The notes below the pieces were generated by a model. That model searched no databases. It was not told the DNA's origin and worked only from the letters and a program-made list of their open reading frames with translations. Made by a program: the position numbers and the translations under genes. Positions 49,824 through 57,206 of a stretch of DNA of 64,000 bases are shown here, piece after piece. Source of the DNA: Phyllobacterium sp. 21LDTY02-6. GTDB taxonomy: Bacteria; Pseudomonadota; Alphaproteobacteria; Rhizobiales; Rhizobiaceae. The DNA is taken from NCBI RefSeq assembly GCF_023554255.2, contig NZ_JAMJWD020000001.1, forward strand, positions 186,001 through 250,000. The letters are read 5' to 3'. Position 1 is the first letter of the stretch; each line of letters starts with the position of its first letter.

Positions 49824-50411
49824 ATGGCAAAACTCTATTTCAGCTATTCGGCAATGAATGCCGGCAAATCGACACTGCTGCTTCAGGCCTCCTACAACTA
49901 TCAGGAGCGCGGCATGAGGACGATGTTGTTCACCGCCGCGCATTATGCGGTGGACGGCGTCGGCAAGATCGTCTCGCGGCTCGGCGTCAGCGCCCCGGCG
50001 GAACTCTACCGCGAGGAAGACGATCTGTTCGCAAGGATCGAGGCAGCGAACGCCGCGGCGCCGCTGAGCTGCGTCTTCATCGACGAGGCGCAGTTCCTGT
50101 CGCGGCAGCAGGTATGGCAATTGGGACGCGTGGCGGACCGGTTGAACATCCCGGTCATGTGCTTCGGCCTGCGCACCGATTTCCAGGGCAAGCTCTTTCC
50201 GGGATCGTCGGAATTGCTGGCCATCGCCGATACGCTGCGGGAAATCCGCACGATCTGCCATTGCGGCGCCAAGGCGACGATGGTCGTGCGGCGCGACCAG
50301 CAAGGCAAGGCGCTGACCGAGGGGGCGCAGGTGGCAATCGAGAAGTCGGTCTATGTCTCGCTCTGCCGCAGGCATTGGGAAGACGAGACCGGGCGCATGA
50401 CAGCGCCCTGA
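49824..50411 (+). CDS. tdk: Thymidine kinase
   Basis: A 195-residue type II thymidine kinase. P-loop FSYSAMNAGKSTLLLQASYN, catalytic region VFIDEAQFLSRQQV, lasso CHCGAKATMVVRRD and C-terminal Cys/His (SLCRRHWED) for the structural zinc site. It salvages thymidine to dTMP. ATG 49824 is preferred over the open frame to 49779. It is followed after 110 bases by the AAA+ cassette on the same strand, with no sign of a link beyond position. Confidence 0.93.
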   Translation: MAKLYFSYSAMNAGKSTLLLQASYNYQERGMRTMLFTAAHYAVDGVGKIVSRLGVSAPAELYREEDDLFARIEAANAAAPLSCVFIDEAQFLSRQQVWQLGRVADRLNIPVMCFGLRTDFQGKLFPGSSELLAIADTLREIRTICHCGAKATMVVRRDQQGKALTEGAQVAIEKSVYVSLCRRHWEDETGRMTAP

Positions 50412-50521: not shown

Positions 50522-51610
50522 ATGGCGAGTTTGCAGAATTTCGATTCGGAAATCGAGAAAACCTCACAAATGGTCAAGGAGATGCGGACGAAGATCGACC
50601 AGTCCAGCGTCGTGCTCGATCAATTCGCCAAGACCGACGCCCGCATCGGCGCGCCGGATTTCGACATCGAGAACGCCCGCATCGAGGACGTCCTGCGCCA
50701 GCAGAAGGTGATGGAAGGCAATATCGCCGACCTCATCATCGGCCTCGAGGACGCCACGAACGTGTTCGGCGCCGAGTTCGAAAGCATGAAGGGCTATTCC
50801 GGCTGGGAAAAATTCGTCGGCATCTTCTCGAAGTCGAAGCAGCAGCGGCTGCGCTCGGACCGGGTGCGCAATATGTCGCTCGCCGGAAACCTGCAGGAGC
50901 TCCTGTCGAAATCCGACCGTATCGTCGGCATCCTGCGCGAACAGAAGAACGTTCTCGACGAGCGCTACAAGACCTCGGAAACCAGCCTCTCTGCCGTGAT
51001 CGAGCGCCGCAAGGCGACGATCGCCGAGCTCGAGGCGACACAGAAGCGGATCGAGGAACTCAATCCGCAGCTTCTCGACATCGAAAACCGCATCGCCTCG
51101 TCGACGGACCAGGGCGCGCGAACCGAGCTGGAGGGCGAGCGGTCCAAGCTCGCGACCGAATATAATGAGAGGCAGGCCAAGGAGCAGGAGCTTCTGGCCG
51201 AAAGCCAGACGCTGGAGCGCTACACGTCGATGTTCCAGACTTTCGTCGATTCGCTCAACAACCAGATCGCGGCGCAGAGCACGCTGATCAACAAGCTGAC
51301 CATCGATACGGAACAGCGCATCGTGCTCTACAAGGCGCTGGAGGATTCGCTGAAGACGGCGGCGCAGCAGGATGTCGCCCACAAGATCAATACGCTTGGC
51401 AGCCAGGTCGACACGGCGGCCGAGGAGACCATGGCCGGTGTCGGCGCCGCGGCGCAGAAGCATATCGGCGATCTCCTCGAGATGCATGAAAAGAACATGG
51501 TCGGCTCGCAGGACATCCAGCGCCGCAAGAAGCTGGCCGACGACGCCTTTTCGCGGCGTTTTGCCGAAGTGTTGAAAAAGCACAATTCAGCGGACTACGT
51601 GCAGAGCTGA
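50522..51610 (+). CDS. Coiled-coil protein, first gene of an AAA+ cassette
   Basis: A 362-residue, mostly helical, soluble protein with no signal peptide. Residues 1-90 are helical with IEKTSQMVKEMRTKIDQSSV. The middle holds GYSGWEKFVGIFSKSKQQRL. A long Glu/Lys-rich coiled coil covers about residues 145-255 (KATIAELEATQKRIEELNPQ), then helices SLNNQIAAQSTLINKLTIDT and ETMAGVGAAAQKHIGDLLEM. The order of helical segments is loosely like the TelA (toxic anion resistance) family, which I cannot verify. ATG 50522 follows GGGAGACATG; the gene starts only three bases before the next. Likely a structural partner of the ATPase. Confidence 0.78.
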   Translation: MASLQNFDSEIEKTSQMVKEMRTKIDQSSVVLDQFAKTDARIGAPDFDIENARIEDVLRQQKVMEGNIADLIIGLEDATNVFGAEFESMKGYSGWEKFVGIFSKSKQQRLRSDRVRNMSLAGNLQELLSKSDRIVGILREQKNVLDERYKTSETSLSAVIERRKATIAELEATQKRIEELNPQLLDIENRIASSTDQGARTELEGERSKLATEYNERQAKEQELLAESQTLERYTSMFQTFVDSLNNQIAAQSTLINKLTIDTEQRIVLYKALEDSLKTAAQQDVAHKINTLGSQVDTAAEETMAGVGAAAQKHIGDLLEMHEKNMVGSQDIQRRKKLADDAFSRRFAEVLKKHNSADYVQS

Positions 51611-51613
51611 TCC

Positions 51614-52762
51614 ATGGCTCAGTCTGCTGAACTGACGGCTGCGGAGCGCTATTTCGATGCTATCCGCGCCGCGCTGGAAGGGTTGTCGGTGTTCCTGAAC
51701 AATCGGGAATCCCCGCTCAACAAGCATGATCTCGTGGCGCAGACGGTCGCCGAATATCTGCAGCGGCTGACCGCTTCGTTCGAGTGCTGGCGCAATCGCA
51801 TCGGCTTCACCGAACGCTTCCGCATCTCGCGGTCGGATAGCGGGTTTCCGGTGTTCCAGAATGTGCTCGAACTCGAGAACGACAAGAAGGGCGCGGCCGG
51901 GCGGCTGGCCTCGATCCCTGACGCCGACAGCCTGCGGGCCGAGATGGCGGATTTCATCCTGCGCCACCGGGCGTTTCCGGCCGAGCTGCAGAAGTCGATG
52001 GCCGAGCGGGTCTATCTCGAGACGGTGCAGCAGGGCGAGGTGTTCTCGCCCTTCCTGCTGCCGGTCACCATCCGGGTCGCGGTCAATCCGAAGACGGGCC
52101 GGCCCTATTATGTCGTGCATTGGGGCGCGTTCGACGGCACGTCAAACCTGCCGCTGGTCTACATGGCCGTGGTCGAGGATTCGTCCGGCGACATGGTCGA
52201 TACGCTGGTGCGCGACGGCAAGCTCAATACGGACGTCAGGATACCCTTGCCGGTCGGCGGGCTGCTCAACCCGGAACTGGCGCGGCGCTTCGACGATTTC
52301 GCCGCCAGGAACTCCGCCTATTCGCTGTCGCCCGTCACCATCGCCACCAGCCTCGACAAGGACTTTCCGGAGCTGCACCCGAAGCAGTTGCGGCGCATCG
52401 TGCTCGGGCCGTTCTATACGGCCGGGATCACCGAACATAATCAGCGCGTGGCGGAAGTATTGGCGAAGGTGCGCAGGCCGGAGGATGCCTGGCTCCTCAC
52501 CTGGACCTTGCAGGAAGTGTTCTCCACCGCCGAAAAGCCCGGCCGCCGCGGGCTGTGGTCGTCCGAACCCTCGCAGGAGGTGTTCCACATCAATACCGAC
52601 GATCTCGAAGCGGCGCGGCAGGGCGTCAGCCATTATGAGCAACATGCACTGGTGCCGCACGAGGCCTATCAGGCGCTCTACGCATCCGGTGAAGCATCGA
52701 CCATTTTCACCGGTTTCCAGACGCATATATTGTCGAATGGCCAGGTAATCAGCGGGGTATGA
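51614..52762 (+). CDS. Unknown protein, second gene of the AAA+ cassette
   Basis: A 382-residue soluble protein that I do not recognise. It has no signal peptide or membrane segment. The first 130 residues are helical (LVAQTVAEYLQRLTASFECW), followed by an alpha/beta part with VTIRVAVNPKTGRPYYVVHW, IPLPVGGLLNPELARRFDDF and LHPKQLRRIVLGPFYTAGIT, and a tail with PGRRGLWSSEPSQEVFHINT. It starts three bases after the previous stop and ends one base before the AAA+ start, so it is translated with both. It may be a substrate adaptor. Confidence 0.78.
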   Translation: MAQSAELTAAERYFDAIRAALEGLSVFLNNRESPLNKHDLVAQTVAEYLQRLTASFECWRNRIGFTERFRISRSDSGFPVFQNVLELENDKKGAAGRLASIPDADSLRAEMADFILRHRAFPAELQKSMAERVYLETVQQGEVFSPFLLPVTIRVAVNPKTGRPYYVVHWGAFDGTSNLPLVYMAVVEDSSGDMVDTLVRDGKLNTDVRIPLPVGGLLNPELARRFDDFAARNSAYSLSPVTIATSLDKDFPELHPKQLRRIVLGPFYTAGITEHNQRVAEVLAKVRRPEDAWLLTWTLQEVFSTAEKPGRRGLWSSEPSQEVFHINTDDLEAARQGVSHYEQHALVPHEAYQALYASGEASTIFTGFQTHILSNGQVISGV

Positions 52763-52763
52763 C

Positions 52764-54674
52764 ATGGATATCGGCCTGACCACGATCGACGAGAAGGACA
52801 TCGCCAGGCATCTCGCCACCGCCCAATCGATCGTGACGCGCTTCGTGGCCGTCGAGACGGGCGAAGGCCGGGGCCCGGCCGAGATCGCCGGGACGGGCCG
52901 GCGCTTCGTATCGACGGTTTCGACCGGCGGCCTGCGCAAGACGCGCGAGGTGGAACTGGCGCGGACGATCCAGTCGGTGCGGCCCGACGACCAGATGCTG
53001 TCGATCACGCAGCACACGCTGCTCTTCCGCGCCCGCCGGGGCGTCGCCATTGCGCTTGCGGTGGCCGACATCTTCGCGCGGCAGAGCGATTTCGAAAGCC
53101 TGCGGGCGCGCAATGCCTCCGCGCCGCTGCAAGGCGAGGACGCGGCCCATTTCAAGCGGCTTCTCTCGGCGGCATCCTATATCGCCGCCTTCACGCTCGC
53201 GGCCTATCTGGCGCAGTTCATCGAGGCGGATGGCGAGCCCGCCAATGACATCGCCGAGCCGGAATTCACCTTCGACACGGCGCAGGACGCGCTGAAATCC
53301 GTGATCGCCGGGCTCGACCGCGCCATAGCGGGCACGGCGGACGAGGCCGGCATGCTGCTCCACGCCAAGGGCTTTGCCGCGCGGGCGATCGAGGCGCTGT
53401 TGCAGCGCAAGGGGCGGTTCGAGGGGCTCGGCGTGTTCGAATCCATACATCTTCGTCTCGACAGCGACGATTTCACCCTGGACGGCTTCGACGTCGCGCC
53501 GTCGAAGAAGCGCACGCCGCTGGTCATGACCTTCCGCAAGCCGGAAGAGGTCGTCGGCAATCACATCGCCAAATACCAGTCGCTCAAGCTCGCCAAGATG
53601 CTGATGGCCTATGATTTCGACCGGCAGCTTAATCCTTTCGTCGAACTCGGCGGCTTCCTCTTCACCTTCATCGGCGATGGCGCGCCCGGCACCGGCAAGA
53701 CGACGCTGATCCAGATGATCGCCGGGCTGCTCAACGATTACTGCCAGGTGGCGGGCTATGCCTTCCACTACGAGAATTTCGGCGTCGACCAGATTTCCTC
53801 CTATCAGGGCAAATCCGGCCAGAATTGCCGGCAGTTCATCACCAATGTGCTCAATCCGCGCATCATCGGCTTCGGCACCATCGACGACATCGACCAGGTG
53901 GCGGCAAAGCGCTCGGACGACCGCGCCTCGTCGGGCCAGCAGGAGATCACCGGCGTGCTGATGGATGCCTTCGCCGGCGCCTCGACCGTCGTGCGCGGCA
54001 ATTGCAGCTTCGGCATGTTTTCCAACTATCCCGAGAATGTCGACGATGCGCTGCGCCAGCGGGCAGGAGCGCGCTGGCTGGTTGACGGGCCGCAGACGCG
54101 CGACGATTACATCGACATATTCGCGCTGCTCGCCGGCAAGAACCACAAGATCCCGCTGGGCGAGCACCAGCTCTTCGAGGCGCAGCAGATCCAGCGCGCG
54201 GTGCAGACGGCCTATGAAACCCTGTCGAAGCCGCAGGAGGAGGGCATGCGGCTGGTCTATGAACGGTTCATCGCCGAACATGGCGAGCCGGAGACCATCG
54301 CCGATATCGGCACATATCTGCACATGATCAAGGAGCGCGAGCCCCGCTTCACCGGCCGGGCGATCAAGAACGTGACGGATGCGATCAAGATGCGGGCAAT
54401 GGATATCGAACTGCCGGACGAATGGTTCGAACGGCCGGAAACCTTCATGCGCAAATCCTATGATGAGAAGAAGGCGATGATCGAGGAACTGCGCCAGCCC
54501 TTCACGATGGAAATGGTGCTTCAGGAAACCAATCGCTATGCGGATTCCGAATTCCGCTATTCCGATCGTTCGGACGATGCGGCGGTGGAAAAGATGATCC
54601 GCGATGCCCGCCTGCGCGAGCGGGCGGTGAAGCAGATCGAAACGCTGAAGACCGAGGGGCGGTGGGACGCCTGA
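52764..54674 (+). CDS. AAA+ ATPase with a novel N-terminal region
   Basis: A 636-residue protein. Residues 1 to about 280 match nothing I recognise. The C-terminal AAA+ module has Walker A GDGAPGTGKTTLIQMIAGLL at about 304-314, a Walker B-like IIGFGTIDDIDQVAAKRSDD near 367-385, a possible sensor segment STVVRGNCSFGMFSNYPENV and an Arg-rich DDALRQRAGARWLVDG near 430, the place of an arginine finger. The domain order is unlike MoxR, ClpX or FtsH. It probably remodels a protein complex made with the two preceding products and the following one. Its stop overlaps the next ATG (TGATG). Confidence 0.85.
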   Translation: MDIGLTTIDEKDIARHLATAQSIVTRFVAVETGEGRGPAEIAGTGRRFVSTVSTGGLRKTREVELARTIQSVRPDDQMLSITQHTLLFRARRGVAIALAVADIFARQSDFESLRARNASAPLQGEDAAHFKRLLSAASYIAAFTLAAYLAQFIEADGEPANDIAEPEFTFDTAQDALKSVIAGLDRAIAGTADEAGMLLHAKGFAARAIEALLQRKGRFEGLGVFESIHLRLDSDDFTLDGFDVAPSKKRTPLVMTFRKPEEVVGNHIAKYQSLKLAKMLMAYDFDRQLNPFVELGGFLFTFIGDGAPGTGKTTLIQMIAGLLNDYCQVAGYAFHYENFGVDQISSYQGKSGQNCRQFITNVLNPRIIGFGTIDDIDQVAAKRSDDRASSGQQEITGVLMDAFAGASTVVRGNCSFGMFSNYPENVDDALRQRAGARWLVDGPQTRDDYIDIFALLAGKNHKIPLGEHQLFEAQQIQRAVQTAYETLSKPQEEGMRLVYERFIAEHGEPETIADIGTYLHMIKEREPRFTGRAIKNVTDAIKMRAMDIELPDEWFERPETFMRKSYDEKKAMIEELRQPFTMEMVLQETNRYADSEFRYSDRSDDAAVEKMIRDARLRERAVKQIETLKTEGRWDA

Positions 54675-55960
54675 TGGACCTGCTTTACGAAAACGAGCTG
54701 ATTTATGGCCGGCTGCTGCGGGTGGACCAGCCGCATCTGGTCGAGCGCTACAACAGGGCGCTGGCGTCCTTCGGCCTGCCGGCGACGAAGCTCGAAGCCT
54801 TCGATATCGACAGGACCGGCTTTTCGCCGCAGGTGGCGGCGGAACTGAAGGACCCGTCCTATCTCGACCCCAACGGCGTCAACCGGCGCTTCATCATCCT
54901 GACGCCCGCGCAGGCATCGCTCCCGGTCGTGCACACGCAGTTCTCCAATACGTCGCAGCTGATGTACGAGTTCTTCACCAGCAATGCGCGCGCCATCAAT
55001 GCCCTGACGATCAAGGACGTCATCTATGGCGAGATCGAGGACAGCGTCTCGATCGTCAACGATATCGAGGACCTGCTTTCGATCAACCAGGTCGAATTCC
55101 GCGTCCTTTCCGCCCAGAACGTCATGGGGCAGGCGGCGGAGCTGCGCCTTCTGGTCGACAGGCTCAAGGACGAGCCGGACGCATGGCGCGACGATGCGAT
55201 GCTGGAGCGCATGGTCGAACTCGCCAAAGTGGCCGGGGATATCCGCGAGAATTCGCTGGTGCCGGACAAGGTGCTGTTTCGCCATTCGGCCTATTGGACC
55301 AGCCATTTCGGCGGGCTCTACGTCTTTGTGGACGACAACAGGACGACCGTCATCGGCGATCCGTCGGCGCCGGGGTTTCGCCGTTCGCGGCCCTGGCAGG
55401 TGGACTACATTTCCATCAAGGATGCCGAGCAGGTGTTCCAGTTCCTGGCGGTGACGTCGCGCATCGAACTGCCGCGCGCGTCCTGGATCGAGCAATCCGG
55501 CTATCTGGAAAACCGGGGCGAGATGGTCATCCGCCATCTCATCCATGCGCTGGAACCGGAGCGCGACCTGGGCAGGATCGACCGCATCTGGCTGCAGACC
55601 TGGATCCATGCCAATGCCAGCCTGATCAATCATGACGGAACATGGCCCTTCCTCAATGCAGCCAAACGCGACCTCGCGCAGAACGGGCGCATCGACATGA
55701 ACGAGGTCGATCCGCTGCGGCGCTTCCTGCTGATCAGGGCCTTGCCGCGCCATCCGGACGCCTGGCTGGTCAACCAGCTGATCAGCGATTTCGTGCCCTG
55801 GGACTTCCTCTCGCGCTACGTGTTCAACAAGCCGGGCTTCTATTCCGACTATCGAAACTGGAGCCCGAACTACCAGCACCATGTCGTCGACATGCTGAAG
55901 ACGATGTATTTGAAGGACAAGGATGGGCTGCGGAAGAAGCTCTATGGCCTCGCTTCCTAG
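54674..55960 (+). CDS. Unknown protein, fourth gene of the AAA+ cassette
   Basis: A 428-residue soluble protein, unrecognised. The N terminus MDLLYENELIYGRLLRVDQP is followed by an alpha/beta region (FIILTPAQASLPVVHTQFSN) and a large helical part with QVEFRVLSAQNVMGQAAELR, RPWQVDYISIKDAEQVFQFL, and near the C terminus LVNQLISDFVPWDFLSRYVF. The sequence is rich in Trp, Tyr and Phe and has no low-complexity parts. The start at 54674 shares bases with the ATPase stop, so expression is coupled. An upstream GTG at 54662 is less likely. Confidence 0.8.
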   Translation: MDLLYENELIYGRLLRVDQPHLVERYNRALASFGLPATKLEAFDIDRTGFSPQVAAELKDPSYLDPNGVNRRFIILTPAQASLPVVHTQFSNTSQLMYEFFTSNARAINALTIKDVIYGEIEDSVSIVNDIEDLLSINQVEFRVLSAQNVMGQAAELRLLVDRLKDEPDAWRDDAMLERMVELAKVAGDIRENSLVPDKVLFRHSAYWTSHFGGLYVFVDDNRTTVIGDPSAPGFRRSRPWQVDYISIKDAEQVFQFLAVTSRIELPRASWIEQSGYLENRGEMVIRHLIHALEPERDLGRIDRIWLQTWIHANASLINHDGTWPFLNAAKRDLAQNGRIDMNEVDPLRRFLLIRALPRHPDAWLVNQLISDFVPWDFLSRYVFNKPGFYSDYRNWSPNYQHHVVDMLKTMYLKDKDGLRKKLYGLAS

Positions 55961-56075: not shown

Positions 56076-57206
56076 ATGCTCGAGCCCATCGTGAACTTTT
56101 TCAGCCGGATTTTCTCCCTTCTGGGCCGGGGGATCGGCTTCGTCATTGGTCTCCTGCTCTGGCCGTTTCTGTGGCTGGGCAGCTGGTACGGCCAGCGCGG
56201 CATCATCGCCAAGGCCGTGGTCGGGCTGGCGCTCATCGTCTGGCTGGGGCTCTATGGCTATTTCTTCTATGCCAGCCAGCTGTGGTCGAATTTCAACCCG
56301 GACTATGTCGCCGCCTATAATTTCAAGGAGAAGAACGTGCCGGCGGGCGAGCCGCTGACCGATCCGGCGCAGGCGGCTGGCACGCCGGCCAAGGCCTGCG
56401 CGCGCTCGGCCATCGTCGAGGTCACCGCCGACCTGACCGATTTCAACGTCAACCAGAATGCCTGGATATCGTCGATGCTGCTCTACAAGCTCGGCTTCTT
56501 CGGCATGGACTGGGACAGGACGCCGTTCCTCGACAACAAGGCATCGTTCCAGCGCGGCATCAATTCGGCCGTCCGGCGCACGGCGGTCGAACTCGTCGAT
56601 ACGCTCGGCCGCGTTCGCGGCACCTCGCAGATCGACGCCGATCTGCAGCGGGCGCGCGGCAATCTCCAGTTCACCGAGGATGCCTGGTATTTCGGCCTCA
56701 ATCCCTTCGGCCCGAAGACGCCGACGCCGACCTATTACCGCACCGCCGTCAACGATCTGCGCACCTTCAACGGCAAGCTCGAAAACTGCAACGCGATCTT
56801 CGACGCCCGCGCCGACAATCTGATCCAGTTCATCGACCGCATCGCCAACGATATCGGCGCCACCTCCGCCATCCTCAAGGACCGGTCGGAGAATTTCAAC
56901 AATGGCTGGTTCGACACCCGCGCCGACGACCGCTTCTGGTTCGCCTATGGCCAGCTCTATGCCTATTACGGCCTGATGAACGCCGCCCAGGTGGATTTCA
57001 ACCAGGTGCTGACCGAAAAGCACCTCACTTCGCTGTGGGACGGCATGGACGGCCAGCTGCGCTCGGCCCTCGGCATCCAGCCCTGGATCATCGCCAATGG
57101 CAGCGAAGGCGGCTGGCTCCTGCCGAACCACCTGACCACGATGGGCTTCTACATCCTGCGCGTCCGCTCGAACCTGATCGACATCAAGCAGGTTCTCCAG
57201 CAGTAG
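56076..57206 (+). CDS. DUF2333 membrane protein
   Basis: A 376-residue protein. The N terminus has two hydrophobic stretches (about residues 15-35 and IIAKAVVGLALIVWLGLYGYFFYAS, written from about residue 45), after which the large C-terminal part should be periplasmic. Family-like segments are CARSAIVEVTADLTDFNVNQ, WISSMLLYKLGFFGMDWDRT, FTEDAWYFGLNPFGPKTPTP and YYGLMNAAQVDFNQVLTEKH. Two Cys (ACARS, ENCNA) could form a disulfide. Function is unknown. It lies 115 bases after the AAA+ cassette on the same strand and may act with it at the membrane. Confidence 0.82.
   Translation: MLEPIVNFFSRIFSLLGRGIGFVIGLLLWPFLWLGSWYGQRGIIAKAVVGLALIVWLGLYGYFFYASQLWSNFNPDYVAAYNFKEKNVPAGEPLTDPAQAAGTPAKACARSAIVEVTADLTDFNVNQNAWISSMLLYKLGFFGMDWDRTPFLDNKASFQRGINSAVRRTAVELVDTLGRVRGTSQIDADLQRARGNLQFTEDAWYFGLNPFGPKTPTPTYYRTAVNDLRTFNGKLENCNAIFDARADNLIQFIDRIANDIGATSAILKDRSENFNNGWFDTRADDRFWFAYGQLYAYYGLMNAAQVDFNQVLTEKHLTSLWDGMDGQLRSALGIQPWIIANGSEGGWLLPNHLTTMGFYILRVRSNLIDIKQVLQQ

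Follow-up and report, generated by a model that had tools for sequence, protein, structure and literature searches.

Four adjacent genes in the window, by which we mean the whole 64,000-nucleotide stretch of Phyllobacterium sp. 21LDTY02-6 DNA that was analysed, are a real, widely conserved and apparently unstudied bacterial set (P1 to P4), and the core comes with either of two membrane proteins, which belong to different families. The unit probably encodes a machine at the inner membrane that uses ATP to act on a coiled-coil protein. Our preferred reading, to which we assign a probability of about 0.4, is a membrane-associated AAA remodelling module, in which the ATPase P3, with P2 and P4 as adaptors, would act on a membrane-tied scaffold of P1; an ATPase with two partners and a coiled-coil protein, encoded beside a membrane protein, fits the ATP-driven remodelling of a membrane-tied assembly.

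Gene layout and coding evidence

All five genes of the locus lie on the plus strand. P1 (50522-51610) encodes 362 residues, judged from the sequence to be helical and coiled-coil-like; P2 (51614-52762) encodes 382 residues; P3 (52764-54674) encodes 636 residues, comprising an N region of ∼250 residues and a classical AAA ATPase (PF00004); P4 (54674-55960) encodes 428 residues of the DUF6638 family (PF20343); and P5, downstream (56076-57206), encodes a 376-residue membrane protein of the DUF2333 family (PF10095). As an earlier note on this DNA had described, the four coding frames are tightly joined, with (i) 3 bases between P1 and P2, (ii) 1 base between P2 and P3, and (iii) a 1-base overlap, TGATG, between P3 and P4, while 115 bases separate P4 from P5. 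Upstream of P1 lies a thymidine kinase gene (49824-50411; PF00265), and the minus strand upstream carries genes resembling the choline ABC transporter that is annotated in the corresponding position of Sinorhizobium meliloti.

Within the genus, P1-P4 are under purifying selection (dN 0.052-0.126 against dS of at least 0.84 where computable, in comparisons with four relatives), which argues that these frames are not chance; P1 has the lowest dN among the five genes against each of the four relatives. The proposed absence of export signals agrees with the hydropathy profiles, in which none of P1-P4 contains a transmembrane-like stretch (highest 19-residue means of 0.91, 0.95, 1.41, and 0.94, respectively). 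Promoter-like and terminator-like sites were no more frequent in a scan of the locus than in shuffles.

Conservation of the gene order

The four genes occur in the same order and on the same strand in 20/20 loci fetched around DUF6638 or P3 matches. Our P3 scan of a species-level genome collection returned at least 534 related stretches (stretches, not genomes), and among the best 80 of these the order P1-P2-P3-P4 was found in 74. Four of the six misses are cut at contig ends (L113, L119, L128, and L153), a fifth (L131) is interrupted by Ns at P1, and the last (L104) is a lone P3. The best 80 matches come mostly from Rhodobacteraceae, but also from Roseibium, Labrenzia, Stappia, Aestuariispira, and two Halomonas. 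The order also held in 20/20 additional Rhizobiaceae-like genera, which were selected among 117 matches because their contigs left enough room and which carry DUF2333 as the fifth gene, and all four genes are present in two distant alphaproteobacterial loci, L052 and L053 (the latter and L099 being one stretch from one genome, and some other loci possibly coming from the same species). Throughout, "Rhizobiaceae-like" (f1) and "Rhodobacteraceae-like" (f27) denote families inferred from named relatives. The genes are thus kept together as the conserved unit that had been supposed, and they do not each fall into a characterised family. The further argument from tight packing to a fixed-ratio complex is not supported: the order is conserved but the packing is not, with intergenic gaps reaching 1-3 kb in some relatives, and packing that varies so widely is no argument for a fixed ratio.

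Within the window's genus, P3 was found in 18/18 genomes and, in the same sample, in none of 12 genomes belonging to other families in the order, and the window's own genome holds one P3 match at E 0.01. Among 199 Rhizobiaceae-like genomes, P1 has a match in 121 (a single one in each) and P4 in 117; 116 of the 122 genomes with either gene have both. P1 stands without P4 in G072, G136, G822, G799, and G741 (68% complete), and P4 without P1 in G774 (83% complete). The distribution of DUF6638 is patchy, at 117/199 Rhizobiaceae-like genomes, 90/198 Rhodobacteraceae-like genomes, and 18/249 and 8/385 genomes of two further samples (7 of those 8 over the cut-off), and P3 was detected in 1/274 Gammaproteobacteria sampled (E 1e-40). 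In 11/11 Rhizobiaceae-like loci, the window included, the thymidine kinase gene upstream of the block is the same.

Three loci showed individual peculiarities. In one Rhizobiaceae-like genome a Fic/DOC gene (PF02661; L042 6303-7133) sits between P2 and P3, and in S. meliloti Ak57 genes for a DUF559 endonuclease and an ISRm16-type transposase lie between P3 and P4 (L180 9100-10845). The lone P3 (L104 9980-11914), from a metagenome bin without P1, P2, and P4, adjoins a phenylalanyl-tRNA synthetase beta gene and is either a solo gene or a mis-assembly.

Two alternative membrane partners

P5 matches DUF2333 at 82.1 bits (Pfam cut-off 22; E 4.7e-23), and DUF2333 is the fifth gene in 10/10 and 20/20 Rhizobiaceae-like loci, as well as in the window, S. 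meliloti, and Shinella. Loci outside this family carry DUF1523 (PF07509) instead (10/10 and 76/80), and in most of them (10/10 and 71/80) an 88-residue membrane protein of no credible family lies between P4 and DUF1523 (for example, L035 10273-10539). DUF2333 and DUF1523 were together in no surveyed locus. The "four-gene cassette" of the earlier note stands as regards the four genes, which do form a unit, but a fifth, membrane-protein gene (DUF2333 here, DUF1523 elsewhere) had been missed. The membrane link is not universal, since two Vibrio loci and one Rhizobium leguminosarum plasmid copy contain none of the DUF2333, DUF1523, and 88-residue genes in the fetched stretch.

Copies on megaplasmids and a phage contig

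P3 matches at 40% identity are found on three Vibrio parahaemolyticus megaplasmids and one V. vulnificus megaplasmid (882-939 kb), and the two that we read carry P1-P2-P3-DUF6638. On these two replicons of ∼0.9 Mb, mfd directly follows the cassette (L179 12277-15738 and L182 12277-15738).

No P3 match was obtained among INPHARED phage records. A 359-kb IMG/VR contig (IMGVR_UViG_3300035698_035310; L185 733-8217) carries DUF2333-P1-P2-P3-P4, with a P3 of 44% identity and DUF2333 (7.7e-91, 304.9 bits) directly before P1. Its neighbouring genes encode a DNA polymerase exonuclease, an Rz-like spanin (1.2e-4), ClpA-like, DnaJ, and ClpX zinc-finger proteins, and Apyc1; deformylase and class I tRNA synthetase genes are also nearby. 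We call the contig phage because of the spanin, its PHROG matches, its size, and its IMG/VR classing; the one terminase model searched, PF03237, had no match. It seems, then, that a giant phage carries its own copy of the unit. Viral scans with P1 and P2 returned only this contig and one prophage edge. In L189 (8001-9068), an IMG/VR contig ends within ∼20 bases of a P1 gene and may represent a prophage edge next to a cassette.

The patchy distribution of DUF6638, along with carriage of the unit by Vibrio megaplasmids and a single phage contig, would suit a stress or anti-phage defence system. We nevertheless consider this improbable: P3 is present in all 18 genomes of the window's genus, the thymidine kinase gene upstream is the same in every Rhizobiaceae-like locus compared, and P1 is confined to one match per genome. 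Moreover, PADLOC returned only weak AAA-domain matches, of P3 to IetA and TRIP13 at 4.1e-4 to 4.3e-3, and none for P1, P2, P4, and P5.

P3 is a classical AAA protein with an altered Walker B motif

P3 matches PF00004 over residues 306-436 (45.8 bits, cut-off 21.2, E 1e-11), which bears out the claim that the AAA module occupies only the C-terminal half of the protein. The Walker A motif, GDGAPGTGKT, spans residues 304-313 (53673-53702, plus strand); the Walker B motif, TIDDID, spans residues 372-377 (53877-53894, plus strand) and has an aspartate at the usual catalytic glutamate position; and residues 429-438, ALRQRAGARW (54048-54077, plus strand), are, by eye, the second region of homology, whose arginines are candidate fingers. 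Across 102 P3 sequences, some of them from the same species, the Walker A pattern and the pattern ALRQR...R[FWY] are each present in 102/102.

Classical AAA proteins usually carry a catalytic glutamate in Walker B, and an aspartate at this position occurs in some active AAA proteins. All 102 P3 sequences have Asp-Asp here (FGT[IV]DDID in 101 and VLFDDVD in the phage copy), and none has DEID or DEVD. This substitution could mean weak or no hydrolysis, or it may mark a slow or switch-like ATPase; because an aspartate is found there in some active AAA proteins, it bears on the rate and not on the family.

With regard to family, the earlier note had set the ATPase apart from MoxR, ClpX, FtsH, and Lon, and indeed none of these is among the P3 matches in Pfam and NCBIfam at E up to 0.1. 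The nearest solved relatives, matched in their ATPase domains, are an i-AAA protease and proteasomal ATPases (1.6e-4 and weaker), and Pfam found no peptidase domain in P3. In NCBIfam, PADLOC, and PHROGs, P3 matches AAA domains at scores that either miss the cut-off or have none to be judged by; a PHROG of unknown function ranks first among them (8.5e-7). The window P3 ranks CDC48 first in NCBIfam, below the cut-off, whereas the phage P3 leans to SpoVK (1.8e-7), CbbX (4.8e-6), proteasome-activating nucleotidase (7.2e-5), and EccA (1.2e-4), all far below the cut-off.

A match of P3 to the clamp-loader PHROG phrog_168 (5.3e-6 over residues 270-586) raises the idea that the unit is a factor for nucleic acids or the chromosome, P3 resembling a clamp loader and P1 a coiled-coil chromosome protein. 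We regard this as very improbable: the P3 motifs, by eye, agree with those of the classical AAA clade, Pfam gives the window's P1-P4 no DNA-binding domain, and it is membrane proteins that recur as neighbours.

Genomes that keep P1 without the ATPase

P1 has no credible Pfam or NCBIfam family. Among the 199 Rhizobiaceae-like genomes, 155 contain DUF2333, 39 of them without a DUF6638 match. We read 35 of these 39 loci (leaving out G703, G713, G741, and G818), four of them chosen for an already known weak P1 match. In eight of the 35, a P1 relative immediately precedes DUF2333 and the stretch contains no P2, P3, or P4; the other 27 have no P1 relative at E 1e-4, which indicates that DUF2333 also has a function independent of P1.

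In all eight reduced P1 proteins, the match to a profile of AAA-associated P1 stops at position 269-280 of 358, and each has lost 13-22 residues within the interval corresponding to residues 273-314 of the window P1 (51338-51463, plus strand). The deletions differ by genus: (i) 273-294 in three members of one genus; (ii) 302-314 in L214; (iii) 285-306 or 285-304 in L222, L236, and L235; and (iv) 285-290 plus 307-314 in L217. The reduced proteins sit on very long branches, so that the alignment there is unsure, and they may have one or several origins. By comparison, four distant AAA-bearing P1 proteins (from Vibrio, the phage, Aestuariispira, and Shimia) have no gap in 255-310. When AAA-bearing P1 proteins of six distant sources are compared, conservation peaks in the 40-residue segment 254-293; the deletions overlap only its second half, plus the residues after it. 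The reduced proteins are still constrained, as pairwise dN/dS among three of them is ∼0.19, 0.31, and 0.31 (0.100/0.54, 0.367/1.19, and 0.367/1.19). On our reading of these sequences, residues 273-314 would serve the ATPase complex, while the rest of P1 would serve the DUF2333 side. The coiled-coil partner, as the earlier note proposed, is the likely client of the ATPase.

Two candidate families for P1 were tried and rejected. PspA/ESCRT-III (PF04012) gave an hhalign probability of 0.2, equal to that of the reversed control, and TelA (PF05816) gave 0.1-0.2, as did its reversed controls, in comparisons run without a positive control; neither is among the 25 of 43 Pfam families listed for 15 P1 members. 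By analogy, TelA is comparable to P1 in being helical, cytosolic, and associated with a membrane protein. Some of the same genomes (G080, G084, G096, and G100) also carry genuine TelA genes at other locations.

P2 and P4 have confident predicted folds

P2 matched no Pfam family and so remains unrecognised, as the earlier note had it. The same description proved wrong for the 428-residue P4, which matches DUF6638 (PF20343) at 241.3 bits (cut-off 27; E 2.5e-71). Searched against solved-structure sequences, the P1, P2, and P4 profiles returned nothing below E 0.06.

The AlphaFold2 model of P2 (pLDDT 87.7, pTM 0.85; 47 aligned sequences, thinned from 78 loci and the window) predicts a helical first part followed by a beta-rich part, and that of P4 (49 sequences, thinned from 77 loci and the window) has a pLDDT of 90.3 and a pTM of 0.86. 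Foldseek, the sole basis for this comparison, found no like fold among 350,542 PDB chains for either model (best E 0.11 for P2 and 1.6 for P4). The P2 hit at E 0.11, a urate oxidase, has a TM-score of 0.15 and was rejected; likewise, a leviviral maturation protein in BFVD, with the best E of 3.9e-4, has a TM-score of 0.12 and was set aside as chance.

Large, conserved partners whose folds Foldseek could not match would suit specific client handling, as in an assembly or activation factor in the style of CbbX or MoxR, where P3 with P2 and P4 would conform or activate a membrane or metabolic complex and P1 would be a structural cofactor, not the client. The leaning of the phage P3 to SpoVK and CbbX, weak as those scores are, points the same way, as do the ClpA-like, DnaJ, and ClpX zinc-finger genes on the phage contig. 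However, in the loci read, whose flanks were compared unsystematically, only membrane proteins were seen to recur as linked genes, and it is P1, not P2 or P4, that persists beside DUF2333 without the AAA protein. We therefore hold this alternative to be possible but rather unlikely.

A proposed mechanism and its relation to known systems

In the membrane-associated remodelling module that we prefer, P1 would be a scaffold, coiled-coil and cytosolic, acting together with a protein of the inner membrane, which is DUF2333 in this locus and DUF1523 in Rhodobacteraceae and other groups. P3, as a classical AAA protein, would be expected to form a hexamer and would dock on the conserved part of P1 around residues 254-314, assisted by P2 and P4 as dedicated adaptors. 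We infer that these proteins form a complex at the membrane, where P3 would spend ATP on pulling apart or recycling the P1 assembly.

Vps4/ESCRT-III, NSF/SNAP, and CbbX-type activases offer analogies for this style of ATP-driven remodelling, and the MIT-interacting motif of ESCRT-III is an analogy for a short AAA-contact element. ESCRT-III/Vps4 and the bacterial PspA/Snf7 proteins with classical AAA ATPases, described in an excerpt of PMC11237479, are the closest comparison system, in that a coiled-coil protein and a classical AAA protein are encoded together. A further likeness to ESCRT-III is that the proposed AAA contact would be a short stretch towards the C-terminus of P1. In contrast, P1 has no profile similarity to PspA, no MIT domain is among the Pfam matches of P3, and the large extra partners P2 and P4 have no known ESCRT counterpart. 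A bolder version of our reading would make the unit an ESCRT-III/Vps4-like machine built from unrelated parts, in which P1 would polymerise on the inner membrane via DUF2333 or DUF1523, P3, guided by P2 and P4, would strip P1 by gripping residues 254-314, and a jumbo phage would have taken over the whole five-gene machine; we think this doubtful.

The AAA proteins of the CbxX/CfxQ type (CbbX, SpoVK, and EccA) have a single AAA module that acts on a partner, and they supply the nearest curated models for the phage P3. P3 differs from them in that the matches fall far below the cut-offs, CDC48 ranks first for the window P3, Walker B is Asp-Asp, and the operon is another one. P4, P5, and the Rhodobacteraceae membrane gene belong to PF20343, PF10095, and PF07509, respectively, and membership in these families of unknown function explains nothing about mechanism.

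DUF6638 was named in no open-licence PubMed Central paper found, and a combined query on the system returned nothing in open-licence full text. The one such paper found for DUF2333, PMC5256989, just names it beside an hcp gene, and DUF1523 also occurs in this literature. A Sinorhizobium ChvI-binding fragment in SMc02733, from an excerpt of PMC3687685, could not be tied to the locus and was not used.

In summary, a compact system with relatives of P3 in at least 534 stretches of a species-level collection, yet with two of its four proteins in no family, has no dedicated paper that we found in open-licence full text, and its P2 and P4 have confident predicted folds to which Foldseek finds no solved neighbour. 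The genomes that keep P1 without the ATPase are a natural experiment: their deletions fall in one interval of P1 and thereby name a candidate contact for the ATPase.
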